DNA of 28,138 nt from positions 1 through 28,138 of IMG/VR virus record IMGVR_UViG_3300023278_002031, one strand, 5' to 3'. The notes under the pieces were generated by a model. That model made no database searches and was not told the DNA's origin. It worked only from the letters and a program-made list of their open reading frames with translations. Source of the stretch: a virus. Positions 9,645 through 27,587 of this stretch are shown here, piece by piece (positions within the stretch are counted from its first letter, which is position 1; each line of letters starts with the position of its first letter). The position numbers and the translations under genes are program-made.

Positions 9645-12600
9645 ATGCCAGAAGTAAGGAACTTGTTTACCGGGTCTAAAATGAATAAAGACCTAGACGA
9701 AAGACTACTACCTCAAGGAGAATATAGAGATGGTCAAAATATATCAGTAAGTAAAAGTGAGGGACCCGACGAAGGTGTAGTTGAAAATATACTTGGAAAC
9801 TCTCAATATTCAAATTTTAACTTTAGATCAGGTACAGAAATAATAGGGTATTATGTAGATACAAATAAAGATAGAATATTTATTTTTGCAACTAATTTTA
9901 GTGATTCATCACCTGATCAATTAAGTAATTTTCCACAAGGAGACTTAAATAATCCAGCTGGAGGTATAATATTAGGTTCTCAATGTATAATAGCATATAT
10001 AGAAGGTCCTTTAACAGGAGGTAATCCAGCTAGCGGCGTAATAGTTCAAGGTAATTTCTTAAACTTCTCTAAAACACACCAAATGCTAGGTGTTGATTTA
10101 ATAGAAGATTTATTATTTTTTACAGACAATAGAAATCAACCTAGAAAAATAAACATAGAAACAGCTATAGCTGATCCTACCTACTATACTAATGAAGATC
10201 ATATTTCAGTTGCTAAATTTGCTCCTTTTATTCCCATATCTTTTATAAACCAAAGTACTAATATGCCAACGGCTAAAGATACTTTAAGTGAATATCTTCC
10301 AGCTAATTCTTCAGCAGTAACAGCTACTGTGACTGGATCATCTTTAGTAATAAGTTTTGGTACAGTTGATATGAATATAACTAATACAACTACAAGGTTT
10401 TTAAACATAAACAAGCCAGAGTTAGGATACTTTAAAGTTACTAATATATTTGGTGGACCGCCTGCAAATAGTATACAATTTGAATATCCAATAGGTTCTG
10501 GTAATAACGCAACTGACTCAATGACAGCCGCTAATACAGCTGCAGTATCACTAATAGGGCCAGGAAATTTTCCTTTTTCTTCTGGAAATATACTTCAATT
10601 TGAACAATTAAATCCCTACTACGAAGCTAATTTTGAAGGTGATGAAAATTATTTAAAAAATAAATTTGTAAGATTTAGTTATCGTTTTAAGTATGATGAT
10701 AATGAATACTCTTTAATGGCTCCTTTTAGCCAATCATTATTTATACCTAAACAATATGGATATTTTTTAGATAGTGCTTATAATGGCACCAAAACTAGAA
10801 AAGATGAAAAAAACACTGCAGAAAGTGGTATTTTAAAATTAATGGAAAACCAAATAACAAAAGCAGATCTTGTAATAAACATGCCAACAGGTTTCAATAC
10901 TTCCGGATCTAATCCATTGGGCGGAGATAGAATATCACAATCTCAACTAGCTAGTGAATTTAAAGTTTCTCAAGTACAAATATTATTAAAAGAATCAGAT
11001 AGCAACGCTATAAGAGTAGTTGATGAAATTAATGTAGAAGACAATTTTACTTCTAGTGATAAATTTTATTCTTATAATTACGTTTCTAACAAACCTTATA
11101 AAGTTTTACCTGACGAAGTTTCGTTAAGAATACATGATAAAGTACCTATAAAAGCAGCAGCTCAAGCAACTGTAGGTAATAGAATAATATATGGTAATTT
11201 TACTGAAAAACACGCATCTCCAGAAAACTTAAATTATAACTTAGGTGTAAGTGAAAAATTTGCCGATGGAAATCCTAGTCTTGCTAATCCACAACGAAGC
11301 AGAGTAAGAAGAGAATACATTAACCACACTGTAAAACAAAATAGATCATATAAAATAGGTGTTGTACTAGTAGACAGATACGGGAGATCATCTAATGTAA
11401 TACTTAGAGATGAATCTATAGTTACAGGTTCAGTTCCTGGAGAATTTAGTAGTTTATATGCTCCATATCAAAACGTAGAAAGTGTTTTAAATTGGCCAGG
11501 AAATAGTTTAAAAGTTCAATTTAATGATTTAATACCTTCAAACAAAATAGATGGTTATCCAGGTATTTTTAATTCAAGTAATCCATTAGGTTATTTAAGC
11601 TACAAAATAGTTGTTCAACAAAAAGAACAAGAGTATTATAATGTGTTTACCCCTGGCGCAACGTCTGGAAAAATAGTTTTAGATAGAGAATTAGGAAGTT
11701 CTTCTATTGACAGTACTGGTTTAAATTATCAAAACCCAGCAGCTGTTTCTAATATATCATTGTTTGGAGATAATGTTAATAAAGTTCCTAAGCAGTTATC
11801 AGATGTAGGTCCTACAGAAACTATATATGGAAGTGAAACTTTACTATACCCTAGAGTTGTAACAAAATATATATTAAATGCTACTAATTATAACGCTTCT
11901 TCTCCTACTTCAGCTTGGTCTCCTGTTTGCGCTTTTTCAGAGTCATCTCAAGTAACTTTTAAAAATGAGTTTACAATAAACTCTATATTGTCTTATAAAG
12001 ACTTAGGAGACTGGGTAGGTCAAAAAGGATTATTTAATAAAAACTCTGCTTATCCTAATAATAATGTTAGCCCCAATACCGAGTATTTTGATCCATTATA
12101 TTTAGATGCTAGTGCTAATCCTTTTGTTGCACAATTAGAAACAAGCTTTTTAGTAGGTTTTGCGCCGGCTGTTCAAGGAAATCCAGCAAACAATGGAGAT
12201 AGATCTTTTTCAAAAAATTTAAACGTATTTGAAACAAACCCAGTAGAGTCAGAACTAGATATATATTGGGAAACTAGTACTTCTGGTACTATATTTGAAT
12301 TAAATAAGTTTATAAACAATGGGTCAGGCGGTGGTATAGGTGTTGATATAGGTACCCCAACGTCACCTCCAATACCAGTATCTTTTAGTCTAGAAGAAAC
12401 TCAAGTACCTAGCGGTACGTCGTGGATAGGTGGAGAGTTTCAAGCTGTTGATAGTAATAATTCTTTAATGCTAACTGGAACAATAGAACTAGCAGGTGTT
12501 ACAGATGGCAACGGTAATATTTTAAATCCAGCTCCTTTTGAATTGGTTAATACAACTGGACTAAAATACAGGCTAAGAGTAAGAACTTCTTCGCCAGCTC

Positions 12601-13157
12601 AATATTTTTATTATGGAGCTGACTCTGCTACAAGAACTTTTAATATAAGCTTAAGAATATTAGCTAATGGCGATAATATAGTTACTAAAACATGTTTATT
12701 AACTAATGAAAAGCCATCTATCAATCCATCATTATCCACTCAAGCTAATATTAATGGTTTTGATTGGTATGAAGGTGAAATTGGTAACCCATCTTCAGGA
12801 TCTGCTGGTAGTGAATCGTATCCATATCCTATATTTGCAATTCCTCCAACAGCGCAAAGAGGGCCAAATGCTTTAATAGGTGCTTTTAATACTCAGACTA
12901 CTGTTTTTAACGGATCTGCTGGAACTTCTTTAGATAACTTAGAAGTTTTAGTGCAAAAAGACGGTACATCTACTGCTAAAACATTTTTTTACTTCAATAC
13001 AGTAACTCCAGATACTTATATAAGAATAGTAAATGATCAACAGTATTTATTAGATAATGCTTACGAGAAAGTTTTATTAAAAGTAATAGTAAAAGACTGC
13101 AATGGATCAACTGGCTTTGCTTTTAAGTATTATTCAACATGGATAGAAATTAATTAA
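9645..13157 (+). CDS. Large tail protein, nozzle/hub type
   Basis: This 1170-aa protein is rich in beta strands, Asn, Ser, Thr and Gly. It opens with a short segment common to phage tail hub/nozzle proteins (KMNKDLDERLLPQGEYRDG, about residues 13-31, followed by NILGN). The remainder is repeated beta-type sequence, consistent with beta-propeller or sandwich domains that form the tail nozzle (the role of P22 gp10 or T7 gp12). It contains FSYRFKYDDNEYS (about 344-356), seen in such proteins where the chain builds propeller blades. Residues about 850-1170 look like extra Ig-like or receptor-facing domains, since they are less charged and more Gly/Ser/Thr-rich. The next gene seems to hold the rest of the same functional unit. 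The fold is inferred from the look of the sequence, not from alignment. Confidence 0.7.
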   Translation: MPEVRNLFTGSKMNKDLDERLLPQGEYRDGQNISVSKSEGPDEGVVENILGNSQYSNFNFRSGTEIIGYYVDTNKDRIFIFATNFSDSSPDQLSNFPQGDLNNPAGGIILGSQCIIAYIEGPLTGGNPASGVIVQGNFLNFSKTHQMLGVDLIEDLLFFTDNRNQPRKINIETAIADPTYYTNEDHISVAKFAPFIPISFINQSTNMPTAKDTLSEYLPANSSAVTATVTGSSLVISFGTVDMNITNTTTRFLNINKPELGYFKVTNIFGGPPANSIQFEYPIGSGNNATDSMTAANTAAVSLIGPGNFPFSSGNILQFEQLNPYYEANFEGDENYLKNKFVRFSYRFKYDDNEYSLMAPFSQSLFIPKQYGYFLDSAYNGTKTRKDEKNTAESGILKLMENQITKADLVINMPTGFNTSGSNPLGGDRISQSQLASEFKVSQVQILLKESDSNAIRVVDEINVEDNFTSSDKFYSYNYVSNKPYKVLPDEVSLRIHDKVPIKAAAQATVGNRIIYGNFTEKHASPENLNYNLGVSEKFADGNPSLANPQRSRVRREYINHTVKQNRSYKIGVVLVDRYGRSSNVILRDESIVTGSVPGEFSSLYAPYQNVESVLNWPGNSLKVQFNDLIPSNKIDGYPGIFNSSNPLGYLSYKIVVQQKEQEYYNVFTPGATSGKIVLDRELGSSSIDSTGLNYQNPAAVSNISLFGDNVNKVPKQLSDVGPTETIYGSETLLYPRVVTKYILNATNYNASSPTSAWSPVCAFSESSQVTFKNEFTINSILSYKDLGDWVGQKGLFNKNSAYPNNNVSPNTEYFDPLYLDASANPFVAQLETSFLVGFAPAVQGNPANNGDRSFSKNLNVFETNPVESELDIYWETSTSGTIFELNKFINNGSGGGIGVDIGTPTSPPIPVSFSLEETQVPSGTSWIGGEFQAVDSNNSLMLTGTIELAGVTDGNGNILNPAPFELVNTTGLKYRLRVRTSSPAQYFYYGADSATRTFNISLRILANGDNIVTKTCLLTNEKPSINPSLSTQANINGFDWYEGEIGNPSSGSAGSESYPYPIFAIPPTAQRGPNALIGAFNTQTTVFNGSAGTSLDNLEVLVQKDGTSTAKTFFYFNTVTPDTYIRIVNDQQYLLDNAYEKVLLKVIVKDCNGSTGFAFKYYSTWIEIN

Positions 13158-13159
13158 AT

Positions 13160-15007
13160 ATGGCATATTTTAAATTAGAAGTTAGTTATTTTAATTCTTT
13201 TTGGTTAAAAAAGACTATATATACAGGAACTCCTGGTAATGATAATGCTGGAGTTCCTTATACTTATAATAATTTTGCAACTCCTCAACAATATAGAGGT
13301 GGTATTGCTTCTAATTTTCCTGGTTTACCATTTAGTCCACCTGCTCCGACTGGCACGATTTGGCCTATATTTCCTTCTGGATGCGGTAGCGAAACTGGTA
13401 GTTTTGGAACTAGTGGTTACGATGAAGTGGAAAATTGGTTTATAGAAGGTTCTAGATACCAAGAAGACTTTAACGCTGTATCAGTTGACTATGGAGCCAA
13501 GGCTTATTTAAAAGAAGATTTTAATACTCAAGAAAAAAGACCAAACGCTTTAATATATTCTGGTATTTATAATTCTAGAACTGGCGTAAATGAAACTAAT
13601 GTTTTTTCAGTAGGAGAAAATATAACAAAAGCAGCTGATCCACAAAAAGGTAGCATCCAAAAACTTTACGCTGAAGACACTAATTTAATAGTTTTTCAAG
13701 AAGATAAAGTAAATAGAGCTTTAATAGATAAAGACACTATATACACGTCTGAAGGTGGTACACAAACTTTACCTCCTGGAACAGTAATAGGTCAGTTAAG
13801 TCCATATGCAGGTGAATTTGGAATAAGTAAAAATCCAGAGTCTTTTGGAGTATATGGTTTTAGAAAATATTTTGCAGACAAAGATAGAGGTTCTATATTA
13901 AGACTATCAGGAGATGGTATGACTGAAATATCTGAAAATGGATTATCTAATTTTTTTAGAGATAAATTAAAAGAAATAAACGAAAATAATGATGCTGTAG
14001 ATATTGCCGCTGTTTCTGCAGCTGGTCAAGCTGATTACGATCCTTTTAGTGGTTTTCCAGCATATATAAGTATAGTAAGTGGTCCAGTAGTTACTTTAGG
14101 TTCTCAGTTGATTATAAATGGTATTGAGTATGATATATACGTTAATGGGCAATCAAGTGGTAGTGGTACAATAATAACTCTTACACAATCTGTAGACTTT
14201 ACAATTGGTGCTGGTGTTAATTTAACTTTTAGAACTTTTGAAAGAGATAAAATAATTGGTGGTTGGGATATACATGATAGAGAGTATGTTGTTTCTATGC
14301 AAAAAGCTGGATCAGGTACTTTTGCAGATGGTACTAACTACAATACTTTAGCTTGGGACGAAAACATTTTAGGTTGGCCAACTTTTTACAGTTACAAGCC
14401 TAATAATATATTTAGTTTAAAAAATACTTATTTTACTACTAACTCTTCTGAAATATACGAACATTATTTTACTGGTGCGTCTAACAATAGAAACGTGTAT
14501 TATGGTGCGGCGCCGGCTGCTTCTTCTTTAACATTTGTTTTTAACCCTCAAGTTAATATAAACAAAAACTTTTTAACTATAGGTTATGAAGGAAGTAACG
14601 GTTGGAAAGGTCAAAGTTTTATATCTGATGAACAAGGAAAACAATTAGTTAATGACAATTATATAAATCCATCAGCTAGTATATCAGAATATGTAAATTA
14701 TACGGATAATAGTGTAATTATAAATAGTTACTACGAAGGTGCTTATGATAACTTTGGAAATGAATTTCCAGCAGCATTAACTCCGCCAATACAAAGAGCT
14801 GGTTTTACACTAAAAGAAGGTAAATATGTATCTAATATTAGAAACAATAGCACAGCTAGAGTTGGTGAAGTATCTTTTGGTAGTTCAATATCTGGAATTA
14901 AAGGGTATTTTGCAACAGTAAAATTAGAAACAGATGGTACTACAGATTTAGGTGGATCAAAACAAATCTTTGCAGCATCGACTAACATAAATGTATCGTC
15001 ACAATAA
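13160..15007 (+). CDS. Tail protein, probable partner half of the nozzle/hub
   Basis: This 615-aa beta-rich protein starts 2 bases after the preceding tail gene. Its central part (about residues 120-280) contains a run typical of large phage tail proteins: RPNALIYSGIYNSRTGVNE, GSIQKLYAEDTNLIVFQEDKV, and a GEFGISKNPESFGVYG segment, then FADKDRGSILRLSGDG. These read as consecutive strands of a propeller. In other phages I recall such segments lying downstream of a GEYRDG-type N-terminus like that of the gene before, so the two may be one ancestral protein divided in two. The first 100 residues are Pro/Gly/Thr-rich, with no signal peptide. There is no catalytic motif for a sugar-degrading tailspike. 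A tail structural role is likely; the exact part is not. Confidence 0.7.
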   Translation: MAYFKLEVSYFNSFWLKKTIYTGTPGNDNAGVPYTYNNFATPQQYRGGIASNFPGLPFSPPAPTGTIWPIFPSGCGSETGSFGTSGYDEVENWFIEGSRYQEDFNAVSVDYGAKAYLKEDFNTQEKRPNALIYSGIYNSRTGVNETNVFSVGENITKAADPQKGSIQKLYAEDTNLIVFQEDKVNRALIDKDTIYTSEGGTQTLPPGTVIGQLSPYAGEFGISKNPESFGVYGFRKYFADKDRGSILRLSGDGMTEISENGLSNFFRDKLKEINENNDAVDIAAVSAAGQADYDPFSGFPAYISIVSGPVVTLGSQLIINGIEYDIYVNGQSSGSGTIITLTQSVDFTIGAGVNLTFRTFERDKIIGGWDIHDREYVVSMQKAGSGTFADGTNYNTLAWDENILGWPTFYSYKPNNIFSLKNTYFTTNSSEIYEHYFTGASNNRNVYYGAAPAASSLTFVFNPQVNINKNFLTIGYEGSNGWKGQSFISDEQGKQLVNDNYINPSASISEYVNYTDNSVIINSYYEGAYDNFGNEFPAALTPPIQRAGFTLKEGKYVSNIRNNSTARVGEVSFGSSISGIKGYFATVKLETDGTTDLGGSKQIFAASTNINVSSQ

Positions 15008-15013
15008 AATTAA

Positions 15014-15415
15014 ATGGAATTAAATATTAGAAAGTTAAAACAAGGTGATTTAACTTTTATAAAAAAATGGTGGGAAGCTTGGCCTGAATGGGTATCTCCT
15101 TCCGATGATTTTCTACCTGAGACCGGTGTTGTAGTTGAAAACAATAAGAAACCTGTAGCAGCTGGATTTATATATTTAACAAATGCTAAAGTAGCTTTAT
15201 TAGAGTGGATAATATCAGATCCAGAGTATAGAGAAGATAATAGAAAGCAAGCTTTAGAGTTATTAATAACTGGAGCTGAAGAAATTATAAAAGATCTTGG
15301 TTACAAGTATTCTTTTAGTATATGTAGACATAAAGGTCTAATAGAAACACATAAAAAATTAGGATGGCATGTGGATGAAAAGCCGTCTCATGAACTAGTT
15401 AAAATTTTAAAATAA
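15014..15415 (+). CDS. GNAT-family N-acetyltransferase
   Basis: This 133-aa protein has the length and layout of a compact GNAT enzyme, which moves an acetyl group from acetyl-CoA to an amine. The first strand and helix (MELNIRKLKQGDLTFIKKWW) start at residue 1. The central beta hairpin (PVAAGFIYLTNAKVALLEWI, about 47-66) leads into DPEYREDNRKQALELLI (about 69-85). This is where GNATs bind the CoA pyrophosphate, with Arg72 and Arg76 in the likely loop. The rest (GYKYSF, then KKLGWHVDE) completes the fold. The substrate is unknown. It lies between tail and internal-virion genes, 6 bases after the stop of the preceding gene, so it is expressed late. It may modify a virion protein or a host target. 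The fold call is fairly firm. Confidence 0.75.
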   Translation: MELNIRKLKQGDLTFIKKWWEAWPEWVSPSDDFLPETGVVVENNKKPVAAGFIYLTNAKVALLEWIISDPEYREDNRKQALELLITGAEEIIKDLGYKYSFSICRHKGLIETHKKLGWHVDEKPSHELVKILK

Positions 15416-15420
15416 TAAAT

Positions 15421-15981
15421 ATGGCAGTAGCAACATCAATATTGGTAGGCGCGGCAGTTGTAGCAGTAGGTGCTAGTGCAGCAACAGCTATAGATGCTAA
15501 TAAAAAAGAAAAAGAAGCTAAAGGGGAGCAGCAAGTACTTAAAGACTCTATAGCAGATCAAGAAAAAGCTTTACAAAAAATAGGTAATCCTTATGCTAAT
15601 TTAGGTGTTGCAGCTAAAGCTTCTGAGTTTCAAGCTGAGCAAGCTGATATATCACTAGCTAACACTTTAGATACTATTAGAGCTACCGGTGGTGGTTCAG
15701 GTGGTGCTACAGCACTAGCTCAAGCAGCTTTAACTAGTAAACAAGGTATTTCAGCTGATATACAAAGACAAGAAGCCTCTAACCAAAAACTATACGCTCA
15801 AGGTGAAGATACTAAATTCCAAAGACAAGAATCAAGAGATTTAATGAAGCTAGACAGAACACAAGCTATGCTTGATCAAGAAAGACAAACAGAAGTTGAT
15901 ATGAGAGCTGCTAAGTATCAAGCATTTGGAAATATTGCAGGTACAGCTACTAGTGTACTTTCAGCAGGTGCAGGGCAATAA
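15421..15981 (+). CDS. Probable internal virion / DNA-ejection protein
   Basis: This 186-aa protein opens with an Ala/Val/Gly-rich hydrophobic segment (residues 3-27), likely a membrane-spanning or membrane-inserting helix. A charged helical region follows, then a small Gly-rich turn (RATGGGSGGATALAQAA, about 87-103). The last 75 residues are Gln/Arg-rich amphipathic helix (KLDRTQAMLDQERQTEVD), ending in another Ala/Gly-rich hydrophobic tail (FGNIAGTATSVLSAG). This plan matches small ejected proteins of short-tailed phages (the T7 gp14 role), which help to open a path for DNA across the cell envelope. It starts 5 bases after the stop of the acetyltransferase gene and is followed by two larger proteins that could be the other ejection components. 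The role is inferred from composition and position. Confidence 0.65.
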   Translation: MAVATSILVGAAVVAVGASAATAIDANKKEKEAKGEQQVLKDSIADQEKALQKIGNPYANLGVAAKASEFQAEQADISLANTLDTIRATGGGSGGATALAQAALTSKQGISADIQRQEASNQKLYAQGEDTKFQRQESRDLMKLDRTQAMLDQERQTEVDMRAAKYQAFGNIAGTATSVLSAGAGQ

Positions 15982-15993
15982 ATATATAAACAT

Positions 15994-17529
15994 ATGGGAA
16001 CTTACAGACAACCAGCAATAATAGACGAATCAGCAGCTTTAAAACAGGCTAATGCTGAAATATCAAAATTTAACGATTCTATTGCTAAAATGGGCGATAG
16101 CGCAGATCCTTGTATAGGTCTTGAAGGAGAAGAGTTAAAAGCATGTAGAGCTAAAAATAATGAAACAAGCGGTTTTAAAACACTTCAAGCTCAAAATAAC
16201 CAAATACTAGATGAGTTAGATTTATTTAGAGCACAGCAAAATAAATCGCAAATTGCAGACTTAAAAAAACCTTCTAATCCTAATGCTTTTCTGCAGCAAC
16301 TAGGTATGGATGCTAAGGATAAATACTTAAAACATATTGCTGAAGGAAATAAGTTTGCAGCAAATCAAATGCTAAAACTAGCAGATGGTTTAAAAGGAAC
16401 TATGACAGGTTTAAACAATATGAAAAACGAACTTACAGCTTCATTAGATGTTCCAAGAGGAGGTCCTAAGTCTGTCAATGCTCATTTAATTGATAATGAT
16501 ATATTTAAAATGGGTAAAAACCTAGTGATGGATCCAGAGTTTAAAAACTTTGAAGCATCGTTAAATGAAGACGGCACCTCGCTAGAGTTTGGATTAAAAG
16601 GAGGAGCTAAGTTTGATATGAATAAATTTAATGCTAATTTAATGTCACCAAATGGCGTTAGTCTAATACAAACTAATGGAGATATGGCTGATGTTACTAA
16701 AAATATGGCAGCTGGTGGTGAAAACAAGCAAACTATAGTAGAAAAAGTATTTGAAACTAAAGGTATAAAGCCTAATAAAGAAGGTATAATAACATTTGAA
16801 GATGGCAACAACGTACTAGATGAAATTGCTAATTATGATCAAGAAGCTATATTAAATAATCAAGATTATTCCACAAGTATATACCCACAAGTCTTAGATC
16901 AAACTTTAGCTGTTTACAATGAAGTAAAAGATAAAGATGGTAATTCTTTAGATCCAATACAAAGTCAAATTAAAAACTTATGGGATAATAATCCTTACGG
17001 TATGAAAGATCCAGTAAACGATTACAAGAAAAACGGATCTGAAATCATTGGCAACTATGTTGGTGCTCAAGTAGCTGTTAACAGACAAAACTCTCCAGAA
17101 GTTATTTTTGATAGAAAAATTGTACAACTAGGGTTGAATGAAGCTTATGCTAGAGAATTTGCTAGACCTATTATAGAGACAAAGCCAGAGGTTGAAGCTG
17201 AGGTTTTAGACATGACAACTGCTCAAGATCAACGTAAAGCAAAAAGACTTGATAGAAAAAAAGATAATCTACCACTCGAGGAAAAATTAAATCAAATGAC
17301 TGAAAGTGATAGAAATCAATTAGCTGCTGATCGATTTAAAGAGCTTGATGATTTTGGTCCTGATGAAGATATGAAAAATATAATGAACACCCCAGGAATA
17401 CCATCTGGAACATATACTGGTAATAGAGCCGTAGCATTATCTAGAGCTGCTGCAAGAATTCAAAATGAAAATTTAACTAATGATATAGTTGAGTTTAATT
17501 CAGATGAAAAATTAAATACTATAGATTAA
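15994..17529 (+). CDS. Probable internal virion protein, function unknown
   Basis: This 511-aa protein is hydrophilic, mostly helical and rich in Lys, Asp, Asn and Met. It has no membrane helix or signal peptide. Two cysteines lie close together near residues 34 and 44 (DPCIGLEGEELKACRAK) and could form a disulfide or metal site. A long central section is Asn/Asp/Gly-rich, and the end (about 400-440) is very basic (QRKAKRLDRKKDNLPLEEK). It lies between the 186-aa hydrophobic protein and the giant protein, one base before the giant's ATG, so these three are almost certainly made together. A T7 gp15-like place in the ejection machinery is possible. I do not recognise a family. Confidence 0.6.
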   Translation: MGTYRQPAIIDESAALKQANAEISKFNDSIAKMGDSADPCIGLEGEELKACRAKNNETSGFKTLQAQNNQILDELDLFRAQQNKSQIADLKKPSNPNAFLQQLGMDAKDKYLKHIAEGNKFAANQMLKLADGLKGTMTGLNNMKNELTASLDVPRGGPKSVNAHLIDNDIFKMGKNLVMDPEFKNFEASLNEDGTSLEFGLKGGAKFDMNKFNANLMSPNGVSLIQTNGDMADVTKNMAAGGENKQTIVEKVFETKGIKPNKEGIITFEDGNNVLDEIANYDQEAILNNQDYSTSIYPQVLDQTLAVYNEVKDKDGNSLDPIQSQIKNLWDNNPYGMKDPVNDYKKNGSEIIGNYVGAQVAVNRQNSPEVIFDRKIVQLGLNEAYAREFARPIIETKPEVEAEVLDMTTAQDQRKAKRLDRKKDNLPLEEKLNQMTESDRNQLAADRFKELDDFGPDEDMKNIMNTPGIPSGTYTGNRAVALSRAAARIQNENLTNDIVEFNSDEKLNTID

Positions 17530-17530
17530 T

Positions 17531-20500
17531 ATGGCAACCCCACCAAAAACAAAATCAAATAGATTTGGACTTTACGGAGGTTTCAAACCATTGAAATCTT
17601 TTAAAGTAAAGCCAAAAAATGTTCGTTTAGCAGAAAAAGATGCTAAAAGAAGAAAAAAAGAACAAGAAAAACAACAAAAAGCAGCTGCCAAAGCTGCAAA
17701 GCCGGCTAAAGTAAAAACTACTAAAAAATTAAATACTTCTATAGGGCAAGTAGCTACTATTAAAACACCTAAGCCTGTAATCACACCTAAAGATTATAAA
17801 CCTCATTTTAAAAAGAAGAGACAAGCTAGAAAAGTTAAAATTATAGGTAAACTACAAGAATCTTTACCTGCGGTTATAGAACCATCAACTGTTATTGATA
17901 CTGGTAATAAAAAGTTAGATGACTATGTTAAAAATACAATTGACAATTGGTATGAAGGACCATTAGACAAAGATGACATAGAAGGTATTGAAAAAAGAAA
18001 ACAAGGTTTAACTATAGAAGAAATTACATCTATTGTTTCTAAAGATTTAGATATTGATTCGGTAACTAACTTAAATCTAGATGATGAACCAGGTGAAAAA
18101 CCTTATATAGAACTAGAAGAAATAGATCAAAATACAGCTGATTTTATAAGACAAAACAATCAAACAGTTGGACCAACTGGGGAAACTAAACAAGCAATTG
18201 GTTTTATACCAGGTGATTCTAAAGAAAAAGTATCTGTAGTTAAAGCAACTCCTATTCCAGGAATGTTTAAACCAGATGGTAAAGGTGGTTATGAAGCTCT
18301 TAAAGAAAAACAAGAAGTAGTAATACAGCAAGACATTGGAGATGACGATAGAGTTGTCATAGCAGATAAAGCTGGAAATATAGAAACACAAGCTAATCAA
18401 GGCCAAGAGTATACTTTGCCTGAGTTTGAAGTTGCAGTAACTAAAGAAGAGTTAAATAAGTGGAAAAAAGATGCTTATTGGAACTCTCAAGTACAGAAAT
18501 ATAAAGATGATTGGTATAACCCAGATCCTAGCACTTTCTTTATTGAAGAAATGAAAGAAGAAGGTGGAGAACTTATTGAAGATGTTTTCATAGGACCAAA
18601 TGAATCTTCTTTTGAAAGTTCTATTTCTAATCTACCTAGCATGGACGAGGTTGGTGCTGAAGAACTTTGGGAAAAGTTTAATGATTCAGAATTTAGAGCT
18701 CATGGTTTTAAATATGAAAACGGAAAACTTTATGCTAACGTTGAAGATGAAAACATTTTTAACGAAACACCAAGAGAAGAAGTAATTTTAGATATATATG
18801 ATGGTGAACCTTTAGATGTTAATGGACAAGTAGCTAAGTCTATAGATATTGATGCTTTATTTTTGCCAGTAGATTTAGACAACATGGATGGTATTAGTAT
18901 ATCTACAGCTAGAGCTACAAATGAAGAAGGTATGAAGAAGTTAAAAAACTTCTTAAAAAATAATAAAACAGAATACAATAAAGATTATGACGATTCTGAA
19001 AATCTTTTAAATATAGAGCAAATATATAGGGATCAACAAAGGGTTAGCAACAACCTAGCTGCTCAAATAGATCAATTACAGGCTGATCTAGCGGACTCTA
19101 ACGTAATGCAAGATAAGAAAGACATAGAAGATAAAGTTAGTTCTTTAAAAGCAGCTTATACTCAAGCTATGTTAGATGCTTTTGCTGATAAAAAAATTAG
19201 TAAAGAGCAAATGATAGAGCTAAAAGAAACTGGTAATACAAAACAGTATGACAGGTTAGTTCCTTCTTATAATGCTAAAATAGATATATTTAATAATATT
19301 GTGGATGAATATGCTAAAAAACCTTTTTCAGAATTTGATATTAAAAGATCTGGTGATAAAGTTATTGTAACAAGTCCTGAAACTGGAATAAGTGTAGACT
19401 TAGATAGCGATTTAATATTAGAAGAAAATAATAGTAACTTGTCTTTGTTAGATATAATAGCTAGCAATGAAGATAAATTTAACGATGTTGTAGATAAAAT
19501 AGTAGATTACCAAGATAAGTTAAACTACTTGCAGGCGTTAATGAGAGATAATAGCGTTATATTAGGTAAGCAATTTACTACTTATATTGAAAAAGTTAAT
19601 TTAGAGAAAAAACAAGAAGTAGATGGTAGTATAGCTGATTATGCTGCTACATTATTAAATAGAATAAAAGATACTATTATAAAACTACCTGCTGGTTTAG
19701 TAGAATTATTATTACAAGGTGTTCAAGCGGCTGCTTTAGCAACAAGCAAAGAAGAATTTGCTAATGAAATAGCTGAAAGTATTGTAAGAGTTGTAGAAAG
19801 ATCTGAAGAAATAATGAGAGCTTTAGATGTTAAACCAGGTGATGATGAAAAGTTTGATAAATTTAACCAAGATTTTCAATCAAGTAGAAAAGGTCAATTA
19901 GAAAAAGCTTTAGTAGAGTTAATAATGGATATATACACAATGAAAGGTGGGGTATATTTATTAGGATCAGGTAGTAAGTTGAGAAAAACAAAATTATTAA
20001 AACTACTAAGAAGTAATAGATTAACTAGAGGACAAAAAATAGGTCAAATAGGTAAAGCTTTATTAAATATAAATTTACCTATGATGTCTAGAACATCTCA
20101 TGATTTTAAATTTGAAATATTAAATTATAGAAAAAAAGGTAGGTTAACAAAAATGACACCTACTGAAGAAATAATTCTTAGTACTGGACTGTCTTATGCT
20201 ATAAGTTTACTAGATAAAATAGGTATTGACGCTATGGCTTCACCAGCTAACAAAGCTCTAGTACTTAGACTTCTTGATAGTATGTTTAAAAAAGGAGTTA
20301 CTACAAGAGAAGCTTTAAATAATATAGTAAAAAAGTTTGCTGCTAATAAGCTGTTTACTATACCAACATCAATGGCAACTGAGGTTGCAACAGAGGTTAG
20401 TCAAGAAGAATTAGAAAGACTTACTAGAAAAGTATACAACTCAATAAAAAATATTCCTGAAGGTAAAGGTTTTCAAATAGCTGAATTTTTATCTGAAGAG

Positions 20501-23500
20501 TGGAAAGAAAACACAGCTGATGTAGTATGGGTTAGTTTGATGACTGTTGGTGCTTATTCAGGTTTTAATGCTGCTGTTGACATAGTAGTTAAAGCTAATG
20601 ACATAAATGAGTTAAAAAAACAAAGTGATGAATCTTTAAAGGCTTATTTAACATTTAGAGATCCAGAAGTATATAGAATGTGGAAAGCTAGTCTTATGGC
20701 TAACTTAAAAATGAATAAAGATAGAAGCGAAGGTGATATATTAAAAGCTAATGAAGAAATAAAAGCCGCTAAGCAGATACATGATATATTACAAAAAATT
20801 CCTGCAGATTTAAACATAAAAGATGCTAAAGAAGCTTTTGACTTATTGTTAAATAAATCTGAATTAGAGCAAGAAATATCAAAATTAGATCCAAGTTTAG
20901 CCGCTGCTAAAGTAGAAGAACTAAAAGGTACTGATGAGAAACTTAAAAAACTAGCTTTAGAGTCTACAGTGGGTGGTGAGTTTAAAGAAGAAGCTGAAGC
21001 AACACCTAAAAAAGTAGATCCTACTATCAAAGAAATAAGACAAACATCAGAGCAACAAGAAAAAGATTATCCTGAAGTAACTGTTGTAGTTGCTAAAACA
21101 GGCGTAGAGGCTGATAAAAAAGCCAAGGAGATTGGTAGTAAAGAAGGCATGGGTCTCATCACTAGTGGACCAAAGATTGGAAGAACTGAAGCAGCAGCTA
21201 AGTTTATTAGAGGCACAGATGGTAAACAATATTTTATATACAATGAGCAAGAAGGTTTAATTACTGGAAAAAACAAAGGCCCTCATGAAGAGTTTCATAA
21301 ATTAGTTGATGACATTGAAAAAAGCACAGGTGACGAAAGTTCCACTTTTGCTATGGCTAATGCTATAATAAATGAAATAGAAAAAGGTAATATAGATGTT
21401 GAAAATTCTGAGTTTTTAAAAATTTTAAAACTTTATGAAAGCAAAGGAAGTAGTGACGTCGAATTAGCCGATGAAATAATAGCAAACTTTATGGACGCCG
21501 TAAAAGATGGTGATATAACCGTAAAAACTTCTTTAAAAAATATTAAAAGCAAATATAAAAAAGCTTTAACAAAGTTTTATAATAAATTGCCTAAGTCTTT
21601 AAAAAGTAAATTACCTGATTTTGGTAAAATAACTTTTGAAACAGATTCAGATTTTATACAATATTTAAAAGATTTTGGCAAAGGCGATAAAACACCGTTT
21701 GAACCAATGGTAGATAAAGACGCTGAAACTAAATTTACAACTAAAGTAAAACCAGTACTTGGAGTTGAAGGAAGTAAAGAAGAGTCTGACAAAACAGAAG
21801 ATAAAGAAAGAGCAGCTATAACTAATCAAGATAATATTAACGAAAGAACTAGTTTAATAAATAAGATTAAAGAACTTGTAGCCGATAGAGGAAACATGTC
21901 TATTGAAGAATACAATAAAAAAGTTGGTCCATTACAAAAGAGAGTTAAAATTTTAACAAAAGGTATTCAAAATGCTGAAGACGTTGCAACTATAGAAGAT
22001 CCTAATAGTGGACCAGGAGCCATCCAAAGAGCTGAAAACAGATTAGATGCTAATAACAAAGAAGCTATTGTTCAGTCTGTAGTTAATGAAAAAATGACTG
22101 GAGATACTTATATGGGTACAATAACTCTTAAAGATGGCACAAAGTTAAAAGCTGCTGTACCTCGTTTTGAAATAGAAGAACTATTAAGAAGTAAAGAATA
22201 TCCTAGTATTTATGCTGCTTATTTTAAACGTGGTCCTAAGTTTAAAGATATGCCATTTGGCTTAAAAGTTAAAAATGATTTAATACTAAGATGGCAGCAA
22301 ACAGTAAAACCTTTGGTAGAAAAATATGCTAGAGAACAAAGAGACAGAGAAGAAGGAACTAGTTTATTTGATGGTGAAGTAGAAACTAACATAGATAACA
22401 TAGAGGTAAAGCCAAAGGAAATTGTTGATGAGAAAATAAACATGCGTAGAGCTTTAGGTATAATACCTGGTAGTGATGTTTATCAAAAAGTTAAAAATGC
22501 TGTAATAAAAACATTTGGAGGTAAGTTACCTACAGTTGCTTCAAGAAAGCTTAAAAAAGCTTTACAAGATAGTTACGTTACAGAGTTAACAGACGACATG
22601 AAAGAAATGGTTCAGGATATGGGTGCTGAAAATTTCTTGCGTACGTATGGTGAAGACATGTATAATGCTATTGATCAAGCTGACATGAATATGTCTTACT
22701 CTGATTTTATAATAAAAGGTCCTAGATTAAGCGTTGAAGAAACTAGAAAAGCTGAAAGAGAAGGTTTAATACCTAAAAAGAAAAAAGGTAAAGATGGTAA
22801 AGATCCTGCAGCTGCTGGAGTTTTTCTATTTACTAAAAAACCTTATGACGAACAAGCTTGGGTTGATTACCACTTAAAACCAACTAAAGGAACTAAATAT
22901 ACTAAGTTAAATCAATTATATGCTATAGCTGCTAAAGGATTAGGTAAAGATGCTACTATGGAAGTTCTTCAAGAAGATGAAGTAATGAACATGTATAATG
23001 AAAGAAACAAGCTACTTAATCAAGCTGAAGTTATTGTTTCAGAGTTAGCTGAGGAAATACAAAGAGATCCTAAAGATAGATTTGCTTTGAATCCTGACAA
23101 ATCTAGTGATATGGTTTTTAAAGCTGTTACAGAAGCCATGAACAATGGTGGTGACATGGATGCGTGGGAAACTGCTCAAGCTAAGTTACCAAAAGATTTA
23201 AGAACTAGTTATAAAGATATTTTTGAAAGATTAAACGACTTATTTGGCGAAGCACAAAGGTTTAAGCAAAAAATAAGAGAGTCATTAAAAGAATATCCCG
23301 AAGAACTTCAAAATGAAATTGATGAATATTTTAAAGTAAATACTCAAGTAAAGAAAAAAATATCTGAAGAAGGAGCTAAACAATTAGATGCTTTTAATAA
23401 TGAATTAGTAAACATAGTAGATCCAGAAGTTTTAAACGCTTTAAATGCACCTACATTTCTTGGCTATATATATGGTTATTTAGATGGAGGTAAAAAAGAC

Positions 23501-26500
23501 AAAGCTGGTAATGTTTTTGGACCTTATAAAAAACAACTTGATGCTATAAAAAAGAAAATACAAAAAAGTAAAGTACAGAGTAATTTAGATTTTAATCCAA
23601 AAGATATTAGATTAATTAATTCAGGTTTTGGCTTATTAGGAAAAGCTGAAAATATATTAAATAAAGAAGGTAGTGTAGATTCTAAATTTGAAGAACTAGG
23701 ATTAGTAGATGGCAAGATAGTTCCAGGAAGTATAATGGATCAGTTGCAAAAAGCTGATGTAGCTAACAAAAAAGCTTTTAGTTATATGATGGTAAAGTCT
23801 GCAGAGGCATTAGCAAATAATCCATCTTTAATACCTGGTTTTTTAAGAAACTTAGAAACAAGCGCTAACAACACTAAAGGTTGGAGAGCTATATCTGGAG
23901 TTTCTTTATTTCAAAAACCTACAGAAGAATCTCAATCTGTTTACTTTAACAATGATCCAGAACAAGGGGTAAATACAAATCATCCTTATTATAACCTAGC
24001 GGTTGAAGTAACCAATATTCAATTTAGCATCAAAGCTACTAAAAAAGGTGGAGATGTTATAACAGCAGAAGCTTATGAAGAAAAACTAGCAGAAAACTTA
24101 AAGTTTAAAGGTGAGCATGTAACTCCTGTTTCTAGTTTAAACGCTGTTCTTGCTGAAAAAATATTAGATACTGTTCAAAAACTAAGAGAAACTAATAGCA
24201 AAAATGAAAAAGATGCAATTTTAAAAACACTTGGACTAGAGGTTGATTTAATATTAAACACTTATGACCAAGTTGTAGGAGTTAAAGCTGCTTCAGAATT
24301 AATAGATATAATAGGTGGAACTACATCTTCTGCAGATTACGCTAGACTTTTTATTGAAGGTGGTTTTGATCTTGATGAGTATTTCCCTATAACAGATCCC
24401 TCTAGCGATGCTGAAACTGTTGTAAAAAATAAAATAATACCAGAAAAAACAGCTATAGAACAAAATACTGAAAACCAATTAGAGCCTAAAGAAAGAAATG
24501 CTAAAGCTTTAGATGATTCTGGTGTAGAAGAAGTTGACAAGAAAACTTCTAATCCTGAGATATTAGGTAAAATGGCAACTATTGATGCTGTTATAGTAGA
24601 AGCTAGAAATCCAACAGGTGAAATTAAAAAAATTAGAGTGTTTGACTTTGATGACACCGTAGCTACTAGTAATAGTTTAGTATTTTATACAATGCCTGAT
24701 GGAACTAGAGGAGAATTAACAGCTGAAGAGTTTGCTAAAGAAGGTTCTAAAATGTTAAATGAAGGAGCTGAATTTGATTTTACAGATTTTAACACTGTTA
24801 GAGAAGGAGAAAAAGGACCTTTATTTGATCTTCTTAAAACAATAAAAGAAAGTCCAGGCAGTAGAGATGTATTTATACTAACAGCCAGAGCTCCTGAATC
24901 TGCAGCTGCTATACATACATTTTTAAAACTAAATGGAGTTGATATACCATTAGAAAATATAGTTGGACTAGGTAATAGCTCTCCTTTTGCAAAGTCAAAT
25001 TGGATGGCAGGTAAAATAGCTGAAGGTTACAACGACATATATTTTGCAGATGATGCTAAGCAAAATGTAGATGCTATGAAAGATTTAGTTGAAGTAGCGG
25101 ACGTGAAAGGTAAGATACAACAAGCTAAAGAAAGATTTGCATTAGATGGTGAGCAAATAGCTAAAAAATTGTTTGATTTAACAGCCGCTAAAAACAAAGA
25201 AGGTTTAAGTTCTGAAGCTTTAAAAAACATATCTGAAGCTAAAGCAGAATTAAAAGGATCTAAAATAAAAGATGAAAGGTTGATGGCTGCATCAGCTCAA
25301 AACTTTACAGGTTTATTATATAGATTTTTAGGAACAGGTGATCAAGGTAATGCAGATTATAAATTTTTAAAAGAAAACTTAGTAGAGCCTTATACTAGAG
25401 CTTTAAATGAAGTTAATAATTTTCAAAACTCATTAATAGCTGACCATAAACAATTAATGAAAACTTTTGTAGGTAAAGATAAACCTATAAAAAACTTACA
25501 AGATCAAGTTCCAGGATTAGGTGGATACACTTATCAAGACATGGTTAGAGCTTTAGCTTGGGATAAACAAGGGTTAACTGTAGATGGATTACCTAAGTCT
25601 ACATTAGATAAAATGAAAAGTATAGCTTCTAAAAATGAAAGCATAAATACTTTTGCCCAACAACTTGTTGATATAAATAAAGGTGATGGTTATTACTACC
25701 CAGGTGATACTTGGAGAGCTGGAACAATTATGGGAGATCTACTACAAGGAGTTACAAAAGTTAAAAGACCTAAAGCTATGTCTGAGTGGTTAGAAAACAT
25801 AGAAACTATTTTTGGTGAATATTCAAACGGTAAATATAGAGGTCAACTAATGAATGCTATTGAAGCTACTTATGGCTCTAAATATAGAGAAGCTTTAGAA
25901 GACATGTTAAGACGTATGACAACTGGCATAAATAGAAGACAAACTAATAGTCGTTTAGAAAATCAATTTTACAACTGGGTAAACAATTCTGTTGGTGCTG
26001 TTATGTTCTTTAACATGAGATCTGGATTATTACAAACATTGTCTGCGGCTAACTATATTAACTGGAGTTTTAATAACCCAGCTAAAGCTGCTGCTGCATT
26101 TGCTAATCAAAAACAATATTGGTCTGACTTTATGGAGTTAATGAACTCTGATTTTCTAGTAGATAGAAGAACAGGTTTAAAAATAAATGTATCTGAATCT
26201 GAAATATTTAGTGAAGCTGCAGGGGCAAAAGATAAAGCATCAGCCGTTTTAAATGCTTTTTTAAGAGCTGGTTTTAGTATTACTCAAGTTGCGGATAGTT
26301 TTGCTATTGCATCTGGTGGTGCTACTTTTTATAGAAATAGAATAAATGATTTAGTAAATAAAGGAAGTACAGAGGCTGAAGCTAAAAAACAAGCTTATAC
26401 AGAGTGGACTGCACTTTCAAGAGAAGCTCAGCAATCTTCTGATGCGTTAGAAGTATCTTCTCAACAAGCTGGTGGCTTAGGTAGAATACTATTAGCTTTT

Positions 26501-27511
26501 GCTAACACACCAATGCAGTATAATAGAATAATATACAAAGCAGTGTCTGATGTTAAAAATGGTAGAGGAGATTTAAAAACTAACTTATCAAGAATAGCTT
26601 ATTATGGAGCTTTGCAAAACTTAATGTTTAATGCTTTACAGCAGGCGGTGTTTGCTGCTTTAGGTAGTGATGATGAAGAAGAAATAGATGAAAAAACAAT
26701 CGGTGTTATAAACGGAATGTTAGATAGTTTGCTTAGGGGAATGGGTGTATCTGGAACAATTGTATCAGCTTTAAAAGATATTGGGGTAGATATATATGAT
26801 AGATCGCAAAAACCTAGACCAGAATACGTTAAAGTTGTTTCTAAGGCTTTTAATATAACACCTCCAATAGATGTTAAAATGTCTAAAGCTGCTAGAGCCG
26901 CAAACACATATGAGTATAATAGGAAAAATCCTATGATTAAAGATCCTTTTAATCCAAATAATCCTTTGTATATGTCTGGCGCTTTATTAGTTGCGTCAAC
27001 TACAAATGTTCCTCTTGATAGAGTATTACAAAAAATTATCAATGTGAACGATGCTATGCGTGAAGATCAAGAAAATTGGAAAAGAATTATGCTAGTTATG
27101 GGTTGGAGTGAATGGCAGTTAAATAGCAAACAAGAGCAAGAGGAAAAAGAAAAAATGCAAAAAGAGTATTATGATTCTATAAAAGAAAATAGAGTTTATA
27201 ACTACAAGCCTATTGAGTCTGTACCGGAGTCTATTAACGAAACTGATCCAACTATAGAAAAAATAGAAACAAAAGAAAAAGAAAAAATAATTAAAACAAA
27301 AGGTGAAAAAGTAAACTTTACAGAAAATACAAGTTTTAAAAACAATAGAGTACCTGTTGAAAAAAGAAATAAAAGCGAAAAAGAGCTTTATGAATTACCT
27401 GCTGCACAACAAAGAGATAGTTTAAAAAGCTTAGGACTAACAGATAAAGAAATAAAAGCTTTAAAATACGAAGGTGATAGAGTTAGAAAAATTCTTGAAC
27501 TACAAAAATAG
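17531..27511 (+). CDS. Giant multi-domain virion (ejection-type) protein with zinc-peptidase-like and HAD-phosphatase domains
   Basis: This 3326-aa protein takes up over a third of the window. Residues 1-110 are very basic (Lys/Arg/Ala/Pro), suited to contact with DNA. About 780-1030 are helical with hydrophobic stretches (ILSTGLSYAISLLDKIG; VWVSLMTVGAYSGF) that may touch membranes, followed by coiled coil to about 1150. An HEEFH motif (His1252, Glu1253, His1256) with Glu1315 in DEIIANF fits a zinc peptidase. A HAD domain spans about 2368-2515: DFDDT (Asp2372, Asp2374), Thr2451 in ILTAR, Lys2488 or Lys2495, and Asp2507-Asp2508. Residues about 2815-3060 form a block I recall from giant phage proteins, including NTPMQYNR at 2992-2999. 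The last 60 residues are charged helix. Position and size suggest an internal protein ejected with the DNA, like N4 or T7 large ejection proteins. The domain motifs are seen; the roles are inferred. Confidence 0.8.
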   Translation: MATPPKTKSNRFGLYGGFKPLKSFKVKPKNVRLAEKDAKRRKKEQEKQQKAAAKAAKPAKVKTTKKLNTSIGQVATIKTPKPVITPKDYKPHFKKKRQARKVKIIGKLQESLPAVIEPSTVIDTGNKKLDDYVKNTIDNWYEGPLDKDDIEGIEKRKQGLTIEEITSIVSKDLDIDSVTNLNLDDEPGEKPYIELEEIDQNTADFIRQNNQTVGPTGETKQAIGFIPGDSKEKVSVVKATPIPGMFKPDGKGGYEALKEKQEVVIQQDIGDDDRVVIADKAGNIETQANQGQEYTLPEFEVAVTKEELNKWKKDAYWNSQVQKYKDDWYNPDPSTFFIEEMKEEGGELIEDVFIGPNESSFESSISNLPSMDEVGAEELWEKFNDSEFRAHGFKYENGKLYANVEDENIFNETPREEVILDIYDGEPLDVNGQVAKSIDIDALFLPVDLDNMDGISISTARATNEEGMKKLKNFLKNNKTEYNKDYDDSENLLNIEQIYRDQQRVSNNLAAQIDQLQADLADSNVMQDKKDIEDKVSSLKAAYTQAMLDAFADKKISKEQMIELKETGNTKQYDRLVPSYNAKIDIFNNIVDEYAKKPFSEFDIKRSGDKVIVTSPETGISVDLDSDLILEENNSNLSLLDIIASNEDKFNDVVDKIVDYQDKLNYLQALMRDNSVILGKQFTTYIEKVNLEKKQEVDGSIADYAATLLNRIKDTIIKLPAGLVELLLQGVQAAALATSKEEFANEIAESIVRVVERSEEIMRALDVKPGDDEKFDKFNQDFQSSRKGQLEKALVELIMDIYTMKGGVYLLGSGSKLRKTKLLKLLRSNRLTRGQKIGQIGKALLNINLPMMSRTSHDFKFEILNYRKKGRLTKMTPTEEIILSTGLSYAISLLDKIGIDAMASPANKALVLRLLDSMFKKGVTTREALNNIVKKFAANKLFTIPTSMATEVATEVSQEELERLTRKVYNSIKNIPEGKGFQIAEFLSEEWKENTADVVWVSLMTVGAYSGFNAAVDIVVKANDINELKKQSDESLKAYLTFRDPEVYRMWKASLMANLKMNKDRSEGDILKANEEIKAAKQIHDILQKIPADLNIKDAKEAFDLLLNKSELEQEISKLDPSLAAAKVEELKGTDEKLKKLALESTVGGEFKEEAEATPKKVDPTIKEIRQTSEQQEKDYPEVTVVVAKTGVEADKKAKEIGSKEGMGLITSGPKIGRTEAAAKFIRGTDGKQYFIYNEQEGLITGKNKGPHEEFHKLVDDIEKSTGDESSTFAMANAIINEIEKGNIDVENSEFLKILKLYESKGSSDVELADEIIANFMDAVKDGDITVKTSLKNIKSKYKKALTKFYNKLPKSLKSKLPDFGKITFETDSDFIQYLKDFGKGDKTPFEPMVDKDAETKFTTKVKPVLGVEGSKEESDKTEDKERAAITNQDNINERTSLINKIKELVADRGNMSIEEYNKKVGPLQKRVKILTKGIQNAEDVATIEDPNSGPGAIQRAENRLDANNKEAIVQSVVNEKMTGDTYMGTITLKDGTKLKAAVPRFEIEELLRSKEYPSIYAAYFKRGPKFKDMPFGLKVKNDLILRWQQTVKPLVEKYAREQRDREEGTSLFDGEVETNIDNIEVKPKEIVDEKINMRRALGIIPGSDVYQKVKNAVIKTFGGKLPTVASRKLKKALQDSYVTELTDDMKEMVQDMGAENFLRTYGEDMYNAIDQADMNMSYSDFIIKGPRLSVEETRKAEREGLIPKKKKGKDGKDPAAAGVFLFTKKPYDEQAWVDYHLKPTKGTKYTKLNQLYAIAAKGLGKDATMEVLQEDEVMNMYNERNKLLNQAEVIVSELAEEIQRDPKDRFALNPDKSSDMVFKAVTEAMNNGGDMDAWETAQAKLPKDLRTSYKDIFERLNDLFGEAQRFKQKIRESLKEYPEELQNEIDEYFKVNTQVKKKISEEGAKQLDAFNNELVNIVDPEVLNALNAPTFLGYIYGYLDGGKKDKAGNVFGPYKKQLDAIKKKIQKSKVQSNLDFNPKDIRLINSGFGLLGKAENILNKEGSVDSKFEELGLVDGKIVPGSIMDQLQKADVANKKAFSYMMVKSAEALANNPSLIPGFLRNLETSANNTKGWRAISGVSLFQKPTEESQSVYFNNDPEQGVNTNHPYYNLAVEVTNIQFSIKATKKGGDVITAEAYEEKLAENLKFKGEHVTPVSSLNAVLAEKILDTVQKLRETNSKNEKDAILKTLGLEVDLILNTYDQVVGVKAASELIDIIGGTTSSADYARLFIEGGFDLDEYFPITDPSSDAETVVKNKIIPEKTAIEQNTENQLEPKERNAKALDDSGVEEVDKKTSNPEILGKMATIDAVIVEARNPTGEIKKIRVFDFDDTVATSNSLVFYTMPDGTRGELTAEEFAKEGSKMLNEGAEFDFTDFNTVREGEKGPLFDLLKTIKESPGSRDVFILTARAPESAAAIHTFLKLNGVDIPLENIVGLGNSSPFAKSNWMAGKIAEGYNDIYFADDAKQNVDAMKDLVEVADVKGKIQQAKERFALDGEQIAKKLFDLTAAKNKEGLSSEALKNISEAKAELKGSKIKDERLMAASAQNFTGLLYRFLGTGDQGNADYKFLKENLVEPYTRALNEVNNFQNSLIADHKQLMKTFVGKDKPIKNLQDQVPGLGGYTYQDMVRALAWDKQGLTVDGLPKSTLDKMKSIASKNESINTFAQQLVDINKGDGYYYPGDTWRAGTIMGDLLQGVTKVKRPKAMSEWLENIETIFGEYSNGKYRGQLMNAIEATYGSKYREALEDMLRRMTTGINRRQTNSRLENQFYNWVNNSVGAVMFFNMRSGLLQTLSAANYINWSFNNPAKAAAAFANQKQYWSDFMELMNSDFLVDRRTGLKINVSESEIFSEAAGAKDKASAVLNAFLRAGFSITQVADSFAIASGGATFYRNRINDLVNKGSTEAEAKKQAYTEWTALSREAQQSSDALEVSSQQAGGLGRILLAFANTPMQYNRIIYKAVSDVKNGRGDLKTNLSRIAYYGALQNLMFNALQQAVFAALGSDDEEEIDEKTIGVINGMLDSLLRGMGVSGTIVSALKDIGVDIYDRSQKPRPEYVKVVSKAFNITPPIDVKMSKAARAANTYEYNRKNPMIKDPFNPNNPLYMSGALLVASTTNVPLDRVLQKIINVNDAMREDQENWKRIMLVMGWSEWQLNSKQEQEEKEKMQKEYYDSIKENRVYNYKPIESVPESINETDPTIEKIETKEKEKIIKTKGEKVNFTENTSFKNNRVPVEKRNKSEKELYELPAAQQRDSLKSLGLTDKEIKALKYEGDRVRKILELQK

Positions 27512-27556: not shown

Positions 27557-27587
27557 AAAAGGGGAAGTCGTAATGACCTCCCCTTTT
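27557..27587. terminator. Bidirectional intrinsic terminator between convergent operons
   Basis: Arms 27557-27569 and 27575-27587 pair over 13 positions with one A/C mismatch (27566 with 27578): AAAAGGGGA against TCCCCTTTT at the base, then GTC against GAC beneath a 5-base loop (GTAAT). On the + strand it is followed by a short T run within the 3' arm (27584-27587). On the - strand the mirror arm ends in a run of six T residues (positions 27560-27555). It therefore can stop transcription from both the giant gene and the - strand reductase operon. A weaker TGGG/CCCA hairpin lies just upstream at 27526-27540. Confidence 0.88.

Follow-up and report, generated by a model that had tools for sequence, protein, structure and literature searches.

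The gene at positions 17531 to 27511 of a 28,138-base IMG/VR virus record, which at its full length is called the window here, encodes a protein of 3326 amino acids (aa). We consider it quite likely that this giant is a polyvalent ejection protein, similar to gp50 of phage N4 but without an RNA polymerase and with a HAD domain. From sequence, predicted models and analogy to known systems we infer its packaging, ejection, processing and substrates. The family of the giant is very common and undescribed, and it sits within the known class of phage polyvalent ejection proteins. New here are the size of the family, the probable exchange of cargo while the core stays constant, the presence of a HAD domain and the exclusion of cysteine as a marker of ejected proteins. 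If the ejection reading is true, a putative peptidase and a putative phosphatase would be delivered at time zero, before transcription.

The giant gene and its locus

The giant is the final gene of a podovirus TerL-portal-MCP-tail operon, the end of which comprises the following features.

15421..15981, plus strand: small ejection-type protein, 186 aa, without cysteine (hhalign to phi38:1 gp099 and Elemovirus gp20; conserved position)
15994..17529, plus strand: middle ejection-type protein, 511 aa, fast-evolving (conserved position and size; divergence)
17531..27511, plus strand: giant ejection-type polyvalent protein, 3326 aa, without cysteine (ORF reading, composition, dN/dS)
27557..27587, no strand assigned: terminator-like hairpin with one mismatch, 3' of the giant gene (read from the sequence; absent from the scanner's list)

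The frame of the giant starts with ATG and comprises 3326 codons, the sole stop being terminal; coordinates and length are exactly those of the single gene of about 10 kb described in an earlier sequence-only reading. In the relative L007 the frame is kept across 2,820 residues with 71% identity to the giant of the window. The dN/dS values against L007 were 0.12-0.21 in all segments except a relaxed stretch at aa 1421-1640 (0.55), the lowest value (0.12) being that of the HAD domain. The entire frame is therefore constrained as protein, and the ORF is a real and continuous coding unit under purifying selection. The whole giant gave no match above cut-off to Pfam, NCBIfam or PHROG models, nor did either of its two predicted models (zincin region and core) match a solved structure.

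The gene order of the window is TerL (partial), portal, a 398-aa protein, MCP, several head and tail genes, then proteins of 1170, 615, 133, 186 and 511 aa, and the giant. Beyond the hairpin, the next gene has the opposite orientation. TerL, portal and MCP match head-and-packaging PHROGs. Among the matches listed, the portal shares 42-49% identity across 94-99% of its length with those of a Flavobacterium Elemovirus, Maribacter phage Panino and ctfjg026, and it was matched by Cellulophaga and Tenacibaculum phages, too. Judged by sequence, the structural operon appears to be related to those of Cellulophaga phi38:1 (Pervagoviridae) and Elemovirus. In the four phages examined, Elemovirus, phi38:1, Panino and ctfjg026, a giant gene closes the structural operon as well (3694, 1691, 1829 and 3859 aa, respectively), and no sequence alignment was found between these giants and that of the window. 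Furthermore, 18 matches lie in bacterial or archaeal genomes, all of them on metagenome-assembled contigs, about half of which are binned to Bacteroidota; we read them as stray phage contigs. A marine Bacteroidota host is likely because of the kinship of the portal with podoviruses of Flavobacteriia and because of the Bacteroidota-binned contigs.

Small and middle genes (median 233 and 517 aa) directly precede the giant gene in about 95 relative loci. The same order of small, middle and giant gene is found in phi38:1, Elemovirus, Panino and ctfjg026, and by size it matches gp14-15-16 of T7 and gp52-51-50 of N4. The 186-aa protein shows a profile match (hhalign) to phi38:1 gp099 and Elemovirus gp20. 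The small protein is conserved; the 511-aa middle protein, which contains 2 cysteines in the window, has diverged as much as the cargo, with 0 invariant columns across 23 relatives, and may co-vary with the giant.

Two further observations concern the genes upstream. The 133-aa protein at 15014-15415 is acetyltransferase-like, its sole Pfam match being weak and unrelated. In many relatives the small ejection gene is likewise directly preceded by an ORF of about 133-136 aa, and the ctfjg026 copy is annotated as N-terminal acetyltransferase subunit. At 9645-15007 the window has two genes (1170 and 615 aa) in the place that a single large tail protein takes in phi38:1 and Elemovirus (1324 and 1493 aa, respectively), and the 615-aa protein showed a match to part of PHROG_14478.

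Exclusion of cysteine and probable ejection

The giant contains no cysteine in 3326 aa. Its 104 relatives together have 27 cysteines in 285,500 residues, 12 of the 27 within the last 40 residues, compared to 8.2 cysteines per 1000 in other ORFs of at least 200 aa from the same loci and 1.6 per 1000 in upstream structural ORFs. The same absence was found in proven ejection proteins, namely P22 gp7, gp20 and gp16 (0 in 1309 aa), N4 gp50, gp51 and gp52 (0 in 4294 aa) and T7 gp15 and gp16 (0 in 2065 aa), with a single cysteine in T7 gp14. Virion polymerase-type proteins of the crAss-like phages phi14:2 and crAss001 contain 0.4-1.2 cysteines per 1000, and portals, tails and enzymes of the compared phages mostly 2-20 per 1000. 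Hence the cysteine test held in P22, T7 and N4, and more loosely in crAss-like phages. A few other proteins, among them scaffolds, the N4 MCP and the P22 needle, are free of cysteine as well, so that the marker has little weight when a protein is short. A limited full-text literature search found no earlier statement of such a marker. Cysteine exclusion, as seen at 15421-27511 of the window and in L148, L125, L126, L127 and L149, may offer a general way to recognise ejected phage proteins by sequence. The C-termini of L024, L028 and L034 carry cysteines within a finger-like C...C-Y-x-H tail, which suggests that metal-bound cysteines are tolerated.

The avoidance of cysteine likely keeps the chain free of disulphides during unfolding and passage of the periplasm. 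In the model published for crAss001, proteins unfold in part as they are ejected (PMC10172136). The term ejection-type used in the sequence-only reading agrees with the three-gene layout, with the cysteine exclusion common to proven ejection proteins and with a locus position like that of the phi38:1 and Elemovirus giants. These two are labelled 'structural protein', an annotation that is untraced to mass spectrometry. According to the mechanism we propose, the giant would be the largest of three ejection proteins in a podovirus probably infecting marine Bacteroidota. It would be packed in the capsid and leave through the short tail at least partly unfolded, ahead of the DNA. Together with the two smaller ejection proteins it would help to move the genome over the cell envelope.

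The exclusion of cysteine spans the full chain, cargo and core, which fits a transfer of the full-length giant. This bears on a different possibility, namely that the giant is an intracellular late polyprotein which is cut by its own peptidase during assembly, so that only some products reach the virion. P1 DdrB, which also has a zincin, is indeed proteolytically processed before packaging (PMC5512222). N4 gp50, however, is packaged unprocessed (PMC5512222), and no protease cleavage site was identified in the giant. Together with the chain-wide lack of cysteine this makes a late polyprotein unlikely, and we prefer the ejection of the giant as one chain.

The zincin-like metallopeptidase domain

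21020..21505, plus strand: zincin-like metallopeptidase domain, about aa 1164-1325 (AF2 secondary structure; motif invariance in alignments)
21284..21298, plus strand: HEEFH zinc-binding/catalytic motif, aa 1252-1256 (HExxH counts across relatives)
21473..21475, plus strand: E1315, predicted third zinc ligand (invariant in alignments)

Of 102 distinct relatives, 95 contain the motif HExxH exactly once and 7 lack it; in shuffled copies it was found in 0 of 102. In a first alignment of 17 giants H1252, E1253, H1256 and E1315 were invariant. When 38 copies of the region 1150-1860 were aligned, only E1253, H1256 and E1315 remained so, H1252 being nearly invariant. In the AlphaFold2 model (mean pLDDT 77.5, pTM 0.40) a helix and three strands precede the HExxH helix, and E1315 lies on a helix further on. 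For the polyvalent zincin, Iyer et al. report an HEXXH helix with a Glu on the next conserved helix (PMC5512222), and the predicted order of helices and strands in the giant agrees with it. Motif and model indicate that aa 1164-1325 approximately form a zincin metallopeptidase with putative activity; the peptidase-like domain noticed from the sequence alone is supported by HEEFH at 1252-1256, by E1315 and by the counts in relatives and shuffles. The peptidase probably frees parts of the chain by cutting, or it cleaves a host protein. According to Iyer et al. such zincins may release chain parts before packaging or after entry (PMC5512222), and both would fit the zincin of the giant. An injected host-takeover machine that is processed after entry, as suggested in the sequence-only reading, is possible.

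The HAD domain and inserted kinases

24602..25150, plus strand: HAD phosphatase-like domain, aa 2358-2540 (motifs I-IV; PHROG_415 matches in relatives; dN/dS 0.12)

As had been noted before, a HAD domain is present, and its motifs are complete: I, FDFDDT (D2372, D2374); II, LTAR (2450-2453); III, AK (2487-2488); and IV, DD (2507-2508). The domain with its four catalytic motifs was found in 83 of 102 relatives and is absent in 19, and every aligned relative having the domain shows DxD[DE]T, LTAR, AK and DD. The best named relative is PHROG_415 'polynucleotide kinase', which was matched by the HAD domain in 15 members of two scans (E 2e-7 in L006). A comparison of the HAD profile with PDB sequences gave nothing meaningful. 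The motifs suggest a phosphatase activity of the giant. In most members the domain separates the cargo from the core; it probably dephosphorylates a small molecule or a nucleic-acid end early in infection. Taking the PHROG name as the single basis, one may speculate that nucleic-acid end repair by the HAD domain, together with an inserted kinase, is a counter-defence against host nucleases.

These conserved residues also bear on the question whether the giant is purely structural, an internal scaffold or channel in which zincin and HAD are inactive relics. It is true that the non-enzymatic helical core is the most conserved part and that HAD or HExxH are missing in some members. However, the zinc ligands and the HAD catalytic residues are invariant amid almost unrecognisable surrounding sequence, which argues against relics, since these would lose such residues first, and the HAD domain has the lowest dN/dS of the giant (0.12). 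A purely structural giant is therefore quite unlikely, and we favour an ejection protein with presumably active enzyme domains.

In L036, L087 and L119 the HAD domain is interrupted by a P-loop kinase, about 34 residues past motif I. This insertion (L036 aa 2184-2374, L087 near 2334, L119 near 609) is of the Zeta/PNK type and gives a kinase-phosphatase pair within the HAD domain. In L042 the start of a P-loop kinase lies at aa 2055-2086, where the contig ends, within a loop of the C-terminal core that is conserved apart from this insertion. Zeta_toxin/AAA_33 was named by Pfam in relatives of two scans. Other Walker A motifs in relatives mostly look like chance; the P-loop is convincing as that of a kinase only in L036, L087, L119 and L042. 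Upstream of the HAD domain there is an EHxxP motif (aa 2195-2196, 24113-24118), which is conserved in most giants.

The C-terminal core

25163..27145, plus strand: conserved all-helical C-terminal core, aa 2545-3205 (alignments, IMG/VR count, model, fold match)

The C-terminal block, already described as conserved in the sequence-only reading, is indeed the most conserved part of the giant. Present in at least 580 IMG/VR contigs, the core is yet without a Pfam, NCBIfam or PHROG model; by sequence it matched nothing in these collections or in 50,697 phage records. The predicted model (pLDDT 68.5) is all helical. In a viral structure library Foldseek found four close relatives with 35-41% identity, one of them named UDP-GlcNAc kinase. 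Furthermore, the fold matches LPD-containing, PolyVal ADP-ribosyltransferase and MuF-C phage proteins with E values of 1e-10 to 1e-4 (TM 0.45-0.59 for LPD/PolyVal-annotated proteins), and more weakly a structural protein of Tenacibaculum phage Gundel. Thus, by predicted fold, the core appears to resemble the C-terminal region of polyvalent proteins already known from phages. The Pfam LPD models matched neither the giant nor its relatives. In the proposed mechanism the core would stay constant and serve to anchor the chain or to package it.

Sequence and profile comparisons revealed no homology between the core and N4 gp50 C2, phi38:1 gp101 or Elemovirus gp18. The ctfjg026 giant gave a colinear alignment of 195 columns with the core at a probability of only 6%, and a scan for relatives from which to build a profile of this giant found none.

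The N-terminal region

17531..17860, plus strand: basic leader, aa 1-110, net charge +29 (composition; similar start only in L006, L007)
19685..19741, plus strand: weak hydrophobic segment, aa 719-737, hydropathy 1.44 (Kyte-Doolittle)
20171..20227, plus strand: weak hydrophobic segment, aa 881-899, hydropathy 1.42 (Kyte-Doolittle)

With 35 K/R and 6 D/E in aa 1-110, the N-terminus is as basic as the sequence-only reading had stated. The same reading called it DNA-binding, an assignment we dropped since charge is its sole support; a similar start was found among the relatives in L006 and L007 only, so that such a leader is no general feature of the family. The membrane-type helices that had been suggested turned out to be marginal: two segments exceed the cut-off (19-residue Kyte-Doolittle mean above 1.4), both of them weakly. 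An N-terminal tag was considered and dropped as well, two short leader patterns being present in 11 and 15 of 118 giants; they occur in no other ORF except another giant.

Comparison with known ejection and polyvalent proteins

The sequence-only reading regarded the domain order of the giant as not explained by a simple structural role. That the order lacks an explanation is incorrect: N4 gp50 (PMC12633501) and the phage polyvalent proteins, a class already described (PMC5512222), are precedents for it. N4 gp50 (Schitoviridae) comprises a membrane-type N-terminus, an RNA polymerase, the HExxH subdomain C1 and the 110-kDa helical C2 without known relatives (PMC12633501). Like the giant of the window it is very large (about 3,500 aa) and cysteine-free; it is ejected, is the third member of an ejection trio and has, after its HExxH domain, a large helical C-terminus for which there are no solved relatives (PMC12633501). 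In contrast to N4 gp50, no RNA polymerase was detected in the giant, a HAD domain lies between zincin and core, and the C-terminal cores share no sequence homology. By analogy, N4 gp50 may serve as the closest working model.

Gene position and size as in N4 gp50, itself a protein with an HExxH domain and a helical C-terminus, could also mean that the giant is a virion RNA polymerase, as in N4 or crAss-like phages, whose polymerase domain is too diverged to be detected. At the sequence level, however, phmmer searches with N4 gp50 and phi14:2 g066 matched 0 of 92 giants and none of the four cultured-phage giants. PF00940 matched T7 RNAP and 0 of 22 IMG/VR relatives of 58-72 kb, a weak test since N4 gp50 was missed, too. 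Moreover, DFDDT is HAD motif I, followed by motifs II-IV, and not a polymerase motif. With the phmmer and PF00940 searches negative, a virion RNA polymerase was rejected as leading idea and appears very unlikely; a polyvalent ejection protein without polymerase remains our preferred reading.

With the polyvalent proteins of Iyer et al. 2017 (PMC5512222) the giant shares the character of a giant multidomain late protein, a zincin with HEXXH and a downstream Glu, a zeta-type kinase in some relatives and a core fold similar to LPD/PolyVal-annotated proteins. Unrelated enzyme domains are combined in one chain, zincin and HAD by motif and a zeta/AAA_33 kinase in relatives. It differs in that there is no LPD Pfam match, that the main text of PMC5512222 does not mention haloacid dehalogenase or phosphatase, and that the family has a fixed C-terminal core with N-terminal exchange as whole cassettes. 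Phi38:1 gp101 (Callevirus, Pervagoviridae) and Elemovirus gp18 occupy the same locus position, are preceded by a homologous small protein and are cysteine-free. Elemovirus gp18 (3694 aa) contains one HExxH like the window family, whereas phi38:1 gp101 (1691 aa) has none. Unlike the giant, both lack a HAD motif and detectable sequence homology to the core. T7 gp16 and P22 gp16 are large cysteine-free members of ejection trios as well, but at 1318 and 609 aa they fall far short of the giant in length. T7 gp16, most of which is helical (PMC8954989), carries a peptidoglycan hydrolase instead.

Probable exchange of the N-terminal cargo

Relatives with cores 72-100% identical can carry N-terminal halves of about 2,000 residues that are unalignable, between conserved neighbours. 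In the pair L083 and L114, identity per 50-residue bin is 72-100% over approximately the C-terminal 1,000 residues; within one bin it drops to 8-36% for the remaining 1,950 or so residues, and for the two genes upstream it amounts to 74% and 68%. Among 111 pairs with a core identity of at least 75%, the N-terminal part was shared to less than 25% in 39 and to at least 75% in 26. Rate differences alone would hardly yield both outcomes at one core distance, so that replacement of the N-terminal half by a diverged allele seems the better reading of these sequences. The N-terminal 2,000 or so residues would be a variable cargo, nearly always with one zincin. A delivered half that is diversified by cassette exchange would suggest an arms race over early infection.

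Tentatively, the giant could be a phage counterpart of polymorphic toxin systems, in which the constant ejection core delivers a swappable cargo of about 2,000 residues as in-frame cassettes. The zincin would act in the host, freeing cargo or cutting a target, and the HAD domain, in a few members with a zeta/PNK-type kinase, would provide end repair or nucleotide-phosphate chemistry before phage expression. We regard this extended picture as conceivable rather than probable.

Horizontal transfer as the sole cause of the cargo differences is unproven, as only few blocks were clearly transferred, such as that shared by L066 and L103 (73% identity vs 52% in the core). Between distant members, cargo similarity is mostly about 25% identity. 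The giant of the window and that of L006 represent a milder case, with about 81% identity in the core and about 27% in the N-terminal part.
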